Below the pieces are notes generated by a model. That model did not search any database and was not told the DNA's origin. It saw nothing but the letters and a program-made list of their open reading frames with translations. A stretch of DNA of 64,000 bases from Agrobacterium sp. AGB01 (GTDB lineage: Bacteria > Pseudomonadota > Alphaproteobacteria > Rhizobiales > Rhizobiaceae): NCBI RefSeq assembly GCF_014851585.1, contig NZ_JACVAB010000001.1:1054001-1118000 (forward strand). Reading direction: 5' to 3'. Below are positions 55,022-60,504 of the stretch, piece by piece (the stretch's first letter is position 1; every line of letters begins with the position of its first letter). The position numbers and the translations under genes were made by a program.

Positions 55022-55489
55022 CTAACCGCGATCTATTCGGCACTGGTAACAATTGTTGCGGGCCGAACGGACATGCACATAGGCAATCTCCAGCCGTTCA
55101 AACAGGCTGGCGGCACGTTGTGATATCTCCGCTGTCGGTGTCACTGCACCGGTGCCGTACACGATGCGGTCGTCGTGGCCATAACCGCGCACGATATAAT
55201 CAGCACTTTCAAGCATCGGCGGCAAAACCTCGCTTGCCGCATAGCGAGGGCATGACCGCTCGTGGATAAAGATTGGCCCGGTCTCGGCATAGGGTTGCAG
55301 GTCGTTAAACGGCCGGTAGGCGAGGAGGAGCATCGCTTCTCCGTCAGCAATTTCACCAAGGCAATGGCGGCAGGGCATGCCGCCTGGTGAGACCGAGCGT
55401 TCGGCGGGTTTGCCATAGGCATCATTGTGCCCGGCCCGAAATGCATCTGCCTCTTCAGTCGGCATGGCGGTAAACAGAATGGTGTTCAT
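55022..55489 (-). CDS. DUF1203 protein
   Basis: A 155-residue cytoplasmic protein of the DUF1203 family, recognisable by the CRHCLGEIADGEAMLLLAYRP segment and the later GPIFIHERSCPRY. The cysteines and histidine in those segments are conserved in the family but no activity is known. It shows no signal or membrane region. The gene is divergent from the metallopeptidase gene. Confidence 0.8.
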   Translation of the reverse strand: MNTILFTAMPTEEADAFRAGHNDAYGKPAERSVSPGGMPCRHCLGEIADGEAMLLLAYRPFNDLQPYAETGPIFIHERSCPRYAASEVLPPMLESADYIVRGYGHDDRIVYGTGAVTPTAEISQRAASLFERLEIAYVHVRSARNNCYQCRIDRG

Positions 55490-57275: not shown

Positions 57276-58697
57276 TCAGTTGTGAATGGCGATATTGAGC
57301 AGTTCCGCCTCGCTCAGTGGCTGAACCCAGGCCTGATAGGTGCCGACAGGCGAGAAGCCCATCATCTGGTAAAGCTGCAGCGCACGCGGGTGGTCGAGTG
57401 TGTTGGTGGTAACAGTGACTTTTTTCGGATTGTCCTGCCAGGCGGCGTAGAGTGCCTGCAACAGGAACCATTTGCCGATACCAGCGCCAATCGCTTCTTC
57501 GAACAGGCCGAAATAGGAAAGCTGGGTCACGTCATCATCGCGCTTGTACAGTTCGAAGAAGCCGGCAGGCGAACCGTTCATATACAGCACGCAGACGCTG
57601 TTTTTCGGGTCGCTCAAAATAGCGCCAAGTTCCGCGTCGCTCATGCGCATGCGTTTTTGCCAGTGCCAGCGTTTGCCGACCCGCCAGTATAGATAGCGGT
57701 AAAAATGCAGCGGAATGTTCGGGGCACGCATGATCGCGGTCTGGATGTTGACCGGAACCGCAATGCTGATCTTTGGCGCAGCCGTCATTTCAAGCTGCGT
57801 GACATGGGCTTTCAGCGGATCAGTGTCTCGGGGCGCGATCGGCTCGGCAGGGCCGGTGACCACAGGCGTGTCTTCAAGGCTGCCCCACTGCGACCAGGAG
57901 CCATCGAACAGGCTGTTGGTCTTGTGGCCAAGCGATTCAAGCGCCAACGTGATGACCGCTGCCGTCACGCCGGAACCACAGCTGGTGACAACCGGTTTGG
58001 AAAGATCGATGCCGGCTTCCGTCACCATCTTGCGCAGTGTCGCCAGATCCTTGAAGTGACCGTTTTCAGAAAATGCCGTGGCAGGCAGGCTGCGGGCGCC
58101 AGGCATATGGCCAGAGCGCATGCCAGCACGCGGTTCGGCCTCATCGCCGGTAAAGCGGCCAGCGCCACGCGCGTCGGCAATCTGTTTGCTGCCGGCGTCG
58201 ACAACACTACGCATTTCGTCCAGTGACGTGACACGATTTTTCTGGAAGTGCGGGATAAAGCTGACAACTGGCGGTTCTGGCAGGTCGGTTTCAAGCGGCA
58301 GGTTTTGCGCTTTCCAGCCGTCGAGACCACCATCCAGCACGTAAACGCTTTCGGCACCCATGACGCGCAGCATCCACCATACACGCGGTGCAGAGAAGAA
58401 ACCGGGGCCATCGTAAACGACGATCGTATCGGTTTCCTGGATGCCAAGTTTGCCAACCTGCTCGGCAAAATATTCCGGCGAGGGCAGGGAATGCGGCAGG
58501 CCAGTGGTGTGATCCGCAATCACGTCTTGATCGAAAAACACGGCACCGGGAATATGGCCCTTGGCGTATTCGTCGGCACCATTGCGCTTGTGGGCTGGAA
58601 GATACCAGGATGCGTCGACGACACGGAACTCAGGTGCCCCAAGCTGTTTGTTCACCCAGTCCGCCGAAACGATGAAACGACTTTTTTCGTTGCTCAC
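57276..58697 (-). CDS. sseA: 3-mercaptopyruvate sulfurtransferase fused to GNAT acetyltransferase
   Basis: A 473-residue protein made of two parts. Residues 1-282 are two rhodanese domains; the second has the catalytic Cys240 in VVTSCGSGVTAAV, the loop of mercaptopyruvate sulfurtransferases rather than thiosulfate ones. A 15-residue linker, GPAEPIAPRDTDPLK, leads to residues 297-473, which read as a GNAT acetyltransferase starting HVTQLEMTAAPK and ending LDHPRALQLYQMMGFSPVGT. In the relatives I recall, these two are separate proteins, so a fusion is unusual. There is no stop or good ribosome site before the internal Met304, so it appears genuine if the sequence is correct. It starts a minus-strand set whose upstream neighbours are alaX and cysK. 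Confidence 0.85.
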   Translation of the reverse strand: MSNEKSRFIVSADWVNKQLGAPEFRVVDASWYLPAHKRNGADEYAKGHIPGAVFFDQDVIADHTTGLPHSLPSPEYFAEQVGKLGIQETDTIVVYDGPGFFSAPRVWWMLRVMGAESVYVLDGGLDGWKAQNLPLETDLPEPPVVSFIPHFQKNRVTSLDEMRSVVDAGSKQIADARGAGRFTGDEAEPRAGMRSGHMPGARSLPATAFSENGHFKDLATLRKMVTEAGIDLSKPVVTSCGSGVTAAVITLALESLGHKTNSLFDGSWSQWGSLEDTPVVTGPAEPIAPRDTDPLKAHVTQLEMTAAPKISIAVPVNIQTAIMRAPNIPLHFYRYLYWRVGKRWHWQKRMRMSDAELGAILSDPKNSVCVLYMNGSPAGFFELYKRDDDVTQLSYFGLFEEAIGAGIGKWFLLQALYAAWQDNPKKVTVTTNTLDHPRALQLYQMMGFSPVGTYQAWVQPLSEAELLNIAIHN

Positions 58698-58716
58698 GAT
58701 CTAGTCTCCCTGCTGC

Positions 58717-59454
58717 TCAGGCTGCGGAATCGGCCGCACCGAAACGGATGCGAAAACGCCGGTTTTCTTTGCCCTTCTTTTCAATCTTTGCGATGTGTAT
58801 CTCACCGACTTCATGTGTCTTTGAGACATGTGTTCCACCGCAGGGCTGGCTGTCAATTGCCGAGTTCTCACCTATGCACACAAGACTGACACGACCAAGG
58901 CCAACAGGTGGGCGCACGTTCTTGGATTTGACGATGCCGGGATTGGCCAGCAATTCCTCATCGGTGATCCACTGCAGGAAAACGGGATGGTCGGCATTGA
59001 CCAGTTCCATCAGCTTGGCCGATACCTCGTCCTTGTCGATGGTTTCCGACATGTCGAAGTCGACACGCGATTCGTCCTCGCCAACGGCGGCACCAGTAAT
59101 CGGCCATTGGCAGACAACGGACAGAAGATGACAGGCGGTATGCATCCGCATCAGCTTGTAGCGGCGCTCCCAGTCCACATGCAGCACGACCTTTTCACCG
59201 GGCGCCAGATTTGCCTGTCCTTCAAGCGGAACGTGGATAATAATGCTCTTGTCCTGACCGTGTCTGGTTTGCCCAAGCTGAATTCTGGAGCCGTCAGCAC
59301 GCTCCAGAAAACCGGTGTCGCCAGGTTGCCCGCCAGAGGTAGCGTAAAAGCAGGTCTGGTCCAGCTCAATGCCCCCGTCTTCGTGAATGTCTGTTACCGT
59401 TGCCTCGCAGGTGGAAAGGTAAAAATCATCACGAAAGAGGGCATTCACTGGCAT
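58717..59454 (-). CDS. alaX: Alanyl-tRNA editing protein AlaX
   Basis: A 245-residue free-standing editing domain related to the C-terminal part of AlaRS, which removes serine or glycine from mischarged tRNA-Ala. The zinc site is H105-T-A-C-H109 in MHTACHLL with Cys205 and His209 in QPCGGTHV. The N-terminal CFYATSGGQPGDTG is the conserved glycine motif. It lies 12 bp after cysK and 20 bp before the sulfurtransferase gene, so the three are almost surely one transcript. Confidence 0.92.
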   Translation of the reverse strand: MPVNALFRDDFYLSTCEATVTDIHEDGGIELDQTCFYATSGGQPGDTGFLERADGSRIQLGQTRHGQDKSIIIHVPLEGQANLAPGEKVVLHVDWERRYKLMRMHTACHLLSVVCQWPITGAAVGEDESRVDFDMSETIDKDEVSAKLMELVNADHPVFLQWITDEELLANPGIVKSKNVRPPVGLGRVSLVCIGENSAIDSQPCGGTHVSKTHEVGEIHIAKIEKKGKENRRFRIRFGAADSAA

Positions 59455-59466
59455 AGTCTAGGCACC

Positions 59467-60504
59467 TTATGTGGTTTCATACGGGACAGATATATCGCTT
59501 TTCCCTGTGAGCCAGGCCGGAACAGGAAGCCCCTTGGACCGCAGGAATGCGGGATTGTAGAGCTTCGACTGGTAACGGTTGCCGTAGTCGCACAGAATGG
59601 TGACGATTGTATGCCCCGGACCGAGGTCTCGGGCAAGGCGAATTGCACCAGCAATGTTAATGCCGGTTGAACCGCCAAGGCACAGGCCTTCCTTGGTGAC
59701 GAGATCAAACAGCACCGGCAGGGCTTCCGCATCCGAAATGCGGTAGGCGAAGTCAGGTGTGAAATCCTGCAGGTTGGCGGTGATGCGGCCCTGACCGATG
59801 CCTTCGGTAATGGAGTTGCCTTCGGATTTCAGGGTGCCGTTTTTGTAATATTCATAAAGTGCCGCACCATCGGGGTCGGCAATGCCGATCTTGATGTCAG
59901 GGTTGAAATCACGAAGGCCATCGGCAACGCCAGCCAGCGTGCCGCCGGAGCCAACAGCGCAGATAAAGCCATCAACCTTACCATCCGTCTGGTCCCAGAT
60001 TTCAGGGGCGGTGGTTTCGATATGGGCCTGACGGTTGGCAATGTTGTCGAACTGGTTTGCCCACACGGCGCCGTTCGGATCGGTTTCAGCAAGCTGCTTG
60101 GCCAGACGTCCGGACACCTTCACATAATTGTTCGGGTTGGAGTAGGGGGCAGCTGGCACTTCCACCAGTTCAGCACCCAGCAGCTTCAGCGCGTCCTTCT
60201 TTTCCTGGCTCTGTGTTTCAGGAATGACGATAACGGTGCGGTATCCAAGCGCTCTGGCAACCAGTGTCAGGCCAATGCCGGTATTGCCAGCCGTGCCCTC
60301 AACAATCGTACCGCCGGGGCGCAGCAGGCCGCGTTTTTCAGCATCGCGAATAATGTACAGCGCCGCGCGGTCCTTGACGGACTGACCGGGGTTGAGAAAC
60401 TCCGCCTTGCCAAGAATTTCGCACCCTGTTGCCTCGGATGCGGCATTCAGACGAATGAGTGGAGTGTTTCCAATGGCAGTCAAAACAGAGGTATGTATCG
60501 TCAT
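59467..60504 (-). CDS. cysK: Cysteine synthase A
   Basis: A 345-residue PLP enzyme that makes cysteine from O-acetylserine and sulfide. The PLP lysine is Lys44 in NPGQSVKDRAALY, the substrate loop is EGTAGNTGIGL, and the C-terminal glycine loop is CAVGSGGTLAGV. GAAGG precedes ATG 60504. It leads the cysK-alaX-sseA set, which connects cysteine making and thiol sulfur transfer. Confidence 0.94.
   Translation of the reverse strand: MTIHTSVLTAIGNTPLIRLNAASEATGCEILGKAEFLNPGQSVKDRAALYIIRDAEKRGLLRPGGTIVEGTAGNTGIGLTLVARALGYRTVIVIPETQSQEKKDALKLLGAELVEVPAAPYSNPNNYVKVSGRLAKQLAETDPNGAVWANQFDNIANRQAHIETTAPEIWDQTDGKVDGFICAVGSGGTLAGVADGLRDFNPDIKIGIADPDGAALYEYYKNGTLKSEGNSITEGIGQGRITANLQDFTPDFAYRISDAEALPVLFDLVTKEGLCLGGSTGINIAGAIRLARDLGPGHTIVTILCDYGNRYQSKLYNPAFLRSKGLPVPAWLTGKSDISVPYETT

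Follow-up and report, generated by a model that had tools for sequence, protein, structure and literature searches.

The window analyzed here, a 64,000-nucleotide stretch of the genome of Agrobacterium sp. AGB01, contains a single reading frame in which a 3-mercaptopyruvate sulfurtransferase (MST, encoded elsewhere by sseA) is followed by a GNAT acetyltransferase. This arrangement raises three questions: whether the join is real, how it arose, and whether the two activities belong to one process. Gene fusions point to working partners, and this one offers a single, easily made protein for finding out what an unnamed acetyltransferase family acts on. The MST and GNAT families are both known, and the fused form is present in many public genomes. 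Among the titles and abstract openings listed by searches of the open literature, a source that mostly leaves out subscription journals, none describes the fused protein.

One open frame encodes a complete MST and a complete GNAT domain

We found no internal stop codon in the minus-strand frame at 57276 to 58697. The open run is 474 codons, compared with a mean of 141 and a maximum of 284 for the longest open run when the bases of the region were shuffled 200 times. A likely ribosome-binding site precedes the GTG start (Table 1), and a scan of the linker by eye for an internal start with a ribosome-binding site found none.

The protein contains two Rhodanese stretches (Pfam PF00581, 7.7e-28) and an Acetyltransf_1 stretch (Pfam PF00583, 1.5e-6; 31.6 bits, cutoff 20.7). 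Its N-terminal half scored 287.8 bits over residues 7 to 281 against NCBIfam NF008557, the 3-mercaptopyruvate sulfurtransferase family, for which the cutoff is 250. With both models above their cutoffs and no stop between them, the initial annotation of a complete MST (Cys240) and a complete GNAT domain in one frame holds. MST homology extends to about residue 281 and the conserved part of the GNAT starts at about residue 294, so that the linker spans about 12 residues; the two domains are indeed joined, but by a stretch shorter than the roughly 15 residues first proposed. We call the acetyltransferase domain LEM-GNAT, after its invariant N-terminal Leu-Glu-Met. The fused gene is single-copy in the window genome, which elsewhere encodes another sulfurtransferase (30%) and a GNAT (35%), both of them distant.

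Table 1. Features of the fused gene and its neighborhood, in window positions
Feature	Position	Strand	Basis or remark
Fused CDS, MST-GNAT	57276..58697	(-)	One open frame, 473 aa, GTG start, unbroken in 39/39 genus-group genomes
Likely ribosome-binding site AGGGAGA	58705..58711	(-)	7 nt before GTG, read by eye
MST domain, residues 8-281, two rhodanese domains	57855..58676	(-)	NF008557, PF00581, fold matches 5wqj, 4jgt, 1urh
Codon of Cys240, CGSGVT persulfide loop	57978..57980	(-)	Invariant in 58/58 fused rows
Linker, residues 282-293	57819..57854	(-)	Lowest conservation within the protein
GNAT domain, residues 294-473	57279..57818	(-)	PF00583, model pLDDT 87.6, fold matches
Codon of Tyr443	57369..57371	(-)	Invariant in 58/58 fused rows
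alaX-like alanyl-tRNA editing protein	58717..59454	(-)	PF07973; 19 nt upstream of fused gene
cysK, cysteine synthase A, PRK10717 type	59467..60504	(-)	NF007989, 580 bits, cutoff 387; 12 nt upstream of alaX
DUF1203 protein	55022..55489	(-)	PF06718; two genes (OmpA-like, DUF4344) between it and the fused gene

The fusion is genuine and fixed in a clade of Rhizobiaceae

The other 38 genomes of the window's genus group, in all of which the frame is unbroken, are 75 to 81% identical to the window. A missed stop or frameshift had been suspected at 57840 to 57870, a zone that overlaps the linker, and the 38 genomes are open there too. Because they read through the junction, a read error at this spot can be excluded. 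Three further genus groups also have genomes that are open across the junction, which refutes a sequencing or assembly error as the source of the join; we regard such an error as having a negligible probability.

Among the matches listed for 247 genomes of the family, a stop-free fused frame occurs in 10 genomes from four genus groups, and the remaining listed matches that span both halves carry at least one internal stop. We also compared named loci, which are the best 80 of at least 412 GNAT relatives and not an even sample. Of these best 80, 21 carry the fusion; in the 59 split loci the GNAT gene is separate and directly 3' of sseA. Full-length homologues covering both domains, which the initial annotation had proposed looking for, thus exist in unbroken form in all 39 genus genomes and in 21 of these 80 loci. 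Its view of the two as separate proteins fits the 59 split loci, as well as a Sinorhizobium meliloti record annotated with sseA and a GNAT gene. Within the same best 80 of at least 412, the fused records include some titled Agrobacterium, A. vitis, Allorhizobium, Peteryoungia, and Rhizobium rhizophilum, and among the split records are Rhizobium, Neorhizobium, Shinella, and Ensifer.

The matches listed for the order (121 genomes), class (115 genomes), and phylum (200 genomes) samples held no stop-free match across both halves outside the window genome, and none of 40 more distant adjacent loci carries an MST-GNAT fusion. In eight further loci, mostly chosen for long open frames, the MST frame ends 1 to 12 codons past the MST match. 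Of 292 matching plasmid records, five have a query coverage of at least 80%; among the two of these five that were examined, one has two annotated genes and one, from Shinella, has a stop between the halves. A pattern search of viral contigs with the fused protein alone returned no match. The two-domain protein is genuine, and it is fixed in a Rhizobiaceae clade with Agrobacterium, Allorhizobium, and Peteryoungia among its members.

The fused gene in one metagenome-assembled record (L111), titled Arenimonas, is of the Rhizobiaceae type; this record is probably a mis-binned contig.

Active-site residues of both halves are conserved across fused proteins

MSTs carry their catalytic Cys in a CG(S/T)GVT loop and have conserved Arg residues, and GNATs have a motif A for acetyl-CoA of the form Q/R-x-x-G-x-G/A. 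We examined these positions in an alignment of 58 fused rows, in which some species appear twice. Cys240 and its loop, His69, Arg181, Arg190, the G-x-G-x-G turn, and Tyr443, which sits where GNATs usually have their general acid and would take that role, were invariant in all 58. In place of Q/R, the first position of motif A is Ile in 41 rows and Leu in 17, a deviation that weighs against the explanation preferred below.

Mean modal identity in these 58 rows was 0.61 for the linker (residues 283 to 293), compared with 0.86 for the MST half (8 to 279) and 0.85 for the GNAT half (294 to 470). Across nine pairs, dN/dS ranged from 0.02 to 0.10 for MST and from 0 to 0.09 for GNAT, and both halves are, judging from these comparisons, under purifying selection.

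Structural predictions give the GNAT half a fold

A model of the fused protein (mean pLDDT 89.2; pTM 0.67) was confident within the domains and uncertain in the predicted placement of one domain relative to the other. The MST half matched the folds of the solved MSTs 5wqj, 4jgt, and 1urh, the last of these, E. coli SseA, being its best solved relative by sequence. Like these MST/SseA proteins and the NF008557 family, the window protein has two rhodanese domains and a CGSGVT loop; it differs from them by the added C-terminal GNAT domain.

Modeled alone (pLDDT 87.6), the GNAT half matched tandem GNATs best, with VipF at Z 16.9 over 150 residues. MshD followed at 14.7, PaiA at 14.2, and RimI at 13.0, with many others at 12 to 14. 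VipF and MshD consist of two GNAT domains each, without a sulfurtransferase; they share the fold of the GNAT half, at 11 to 15% identity in those alignments. Against NCBIfam, with E values up to 1, the GNAT half gave three families, all far below cutoff, and hence no named family; neither TIGR03448 (MshD) nor NF002959 (PRK03624, YpeA-type) was among the three. We considered assigning a function to the GNAT half from its fold and rejected this, as no single match stands out enough for a substrate name. The matches to the model indicate a fold for this half, not a substrate.

The mycothiol synthase MshD acetylates a cysteine amine, and its presence among the matches bears on a reading in which the two halves share a substrate or hand it over directly. 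The GNAT half would then acetylate the amine of a cysteine-derived thiol or persulfide that the MST half makes or uses. The fusion itself and the conserved gene order described below also favor this reading. However, VipF scores higher than MshD, PaiA ties with it, and RimI is not far below, so the MshD match says little; MshD is, in addition, built from tandem GNAT domains, and the window protein has a single GNAT stretch. We treat an MshD-like role as a weak lead and consider a shared or directly handed-over substrate unlikely.

The gene pair belongs to a wider cysteine-related neighborhood

The fused gene lies downstream of cysK and alaX and upstream of a gene for a DUF1203 protein (Table 1). 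The AlaX-like protein scored 195 bits against its best NCBIfam model, a_tRNA_ed_AlaXM, below the cutoff of 300, and by this comparison may represent a distinct subfamily. Both cysK and alaX are upstream in all 80 named loci (the best 80 of at least 412), and DUF1203 follows on the same strand in 74 of these 80, including 16 of the 21 fused ones. Sinorhizobium meliloti Ak57 pSymB has, as annotated, the same order of cysK, alaX, sseA, GNAT, and DUF1203, but there sseA and the GNAT gene are separate, each with its own start and stop, whereas they are fused in the window.

The class sample (115 genomes) contained 70 matching genomes besides the window and one of its order: 62 with an MST row, 4 with GNAT only, and 4 with weak MST-like matches, which were omitted. 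Among the 62, the same GNAT family lies at most 600 bases downstream of MST on the same strand in 29 and elsewhere in 7, and none is listed in 26. The fusion agrees with this partnership, shown by gene order across a bacterial class, and the pairing of MST with GNAT is, by these arrangements, older than the fusion.

We then assembled 40 close MST-GNAT loci, 27 of the 29 class-level cases plus 13 from the order level; they were selected for MST-GNAT proximity, so only their other genes are informative. Upstream of the pair we found cysK in 35 of the 40 and alaX in 26, with several contigs ending within the stretch. An ABC-transporter permease, which we take to be like amino-acid transporter permeases, lies downstream on the opposite strand, at any distance, in 19 of the 40. 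As a control, we used genomes in which the GNAT gene is not beside MST (20 of 33 such genomes), where cysK is near MST in 13 of 20 and alaX in 9 of 20; five further loci without GNAT also retain cysK. Since cysK and alaX occur near MST without the GNAT gene, this core does not need it. In terms of gene order, cysK-alaX-sseA looks like the core and GNAT like a frequent last gene.

The steady company of alaX suggests another reading, in which the GNAT half acetylates proteins or a tRNA-linked target, thereby regulating or protecting translation together with AlaX, and its chemistry is unrelated to that of MST. The presence of RimI and other protein acetyltransferases among the fold matches is consistent with it, as is alaX itself, upstream throughout the named loci and in 26 of the 40 more distant ones. 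In the other 14 distant loci, however, some of them cut by contig ends, no alaX was found upstream, and we consider a role in translation improbable.

The fusion most probably arose once

We built quick trees from 67 rows, comprising 54 of the 80 named loci (26 near-copies omitted), 12 others, and the window. Neither the GNAT tree (p-AU 0.743) nor the MST tree (p-AU 0.161) rejected a single origin of the fusion. The MST tree places three split rows inside the fused group, so the fusion may have been reversed there, or a second event may have occurred.

In the split named loci (among the best 80 of at least 412), the GNAT gene begins close to where sseA stops, with the two genes in the same frame in 6 of 59 and in different frames in 53 of 59; plain stop loss would thus be insufficient to join the genes in those 53. 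In-frame split relatives have a stop and a new start at the junction, as in G143 and in a Shinella record, and in such cases loss of one stop would join sseA and the GNAT gene. Most probably, the fusion would have arisen once, by loss of the boundary (a stop codon plus a new start) between adjacent, co-directed sseA and GNAT genes.

The two trees conflict for loci L067-L079 and for L089, L104, and L126. A Neorhizobium group has its GNAT near the fused clade and its MST placed differently (p-AU 3.3e-4), and the reverse pattern holds for three records titled Rhizobiales bacterium (p-AU 4.3e-5); both groups were chosen after the trees had been seen, which makes these p-values too small by some amount. 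This conflict suggests separate exchange of the two halves and so speaks against a tight physical dependence between them outside the fused clade.

These observations also bear on a serious alternative, that the fusion is neutral and the loss of the gene boundary gained nothing beyond the existing co-expression. The genes were already adjacent in all 59 split named loci (again among the best 80 of at least 412), the linker is variable, and MST and GNAT have apparently been exchanged separately in other lineages. The uncertain domain placement (pTM 0.67) and the three split rows in the fused MST group, maybe a reversal, point the same way. Yet no split was found in any of the 39 genus genomes, and the neighborhood itself is kept across the class. 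We give neutral fusion somewhat less than an even chance.

A bifunctional enzyme of a cysteine-handling operon is the best explanation

The explanation we prefer, with fair though not full confidence, is that the window encodes a bifunctional enzyme of a cysteine-handling operon, derived from a single-origin joining of sseA and a GNAT gene. By analogy with its family, the N-terminal half would transfer sulfur from 3-mercaptopyruvate to Cys240 as a persulfide and then to a thiol acceptor, and the C-terminal half, likewise judged by family, would transfer acetyl from acetyl-CoA to a primary amine. More tentatively, both halves may serve one cysteine/serine-handling process, and the fusion might mainly fix equal amounts of two enzymes that were already made together.

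The initial annotation had suggested that acetyl and sulfur transfer act on the same thiol or in the same pathway. The shared pathway gains from a gene order that extends well beyond the fused clade, with the cysK-alaX-sseA core also occurring without GNAT. For the same thiol, nothing was found in support, and the domain placement in the model is uncertain. As for the GNAT substrate, the likeliest single kind would be a small amine from the metabolism of cysteine or serine, a suggestion that is itself rather doubtful. More speculatively, and in our view with only a slim chance of being correct as a whole, LEM-GNAT might act on an aminothiol or related small amine that MST makes or uses, and cysK-alaX-sseA-GNAT-DUF1203 might form a so far undescribed unit by which Alphaproteobacteria deal with surplus cysteine and serine, one that Agrobacterium has condensed to a bifunctional enzyme.

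LEM-GNAT is also fused to a second GNAT

A second GNAT intervenes between MST and LEM-GNAT in 11 of the 29 adjacent class-level cases. It is present in 10 of the 40 close loci and fused to LEM-GNAT in 6. In L140, L141, L143, L144, L146, and L147, from other Alphaproteobacteria, LEM-GNAT is joined to this second GNAT, not to MST, at the same operon position. The second GNAT of L143 belongs to the PRK03624 family, which we take to be YpeA. This fusion has the same LEM-GNAT family as the window protein, in the same place after MST, but its partner is a GNAT instead of an MST.
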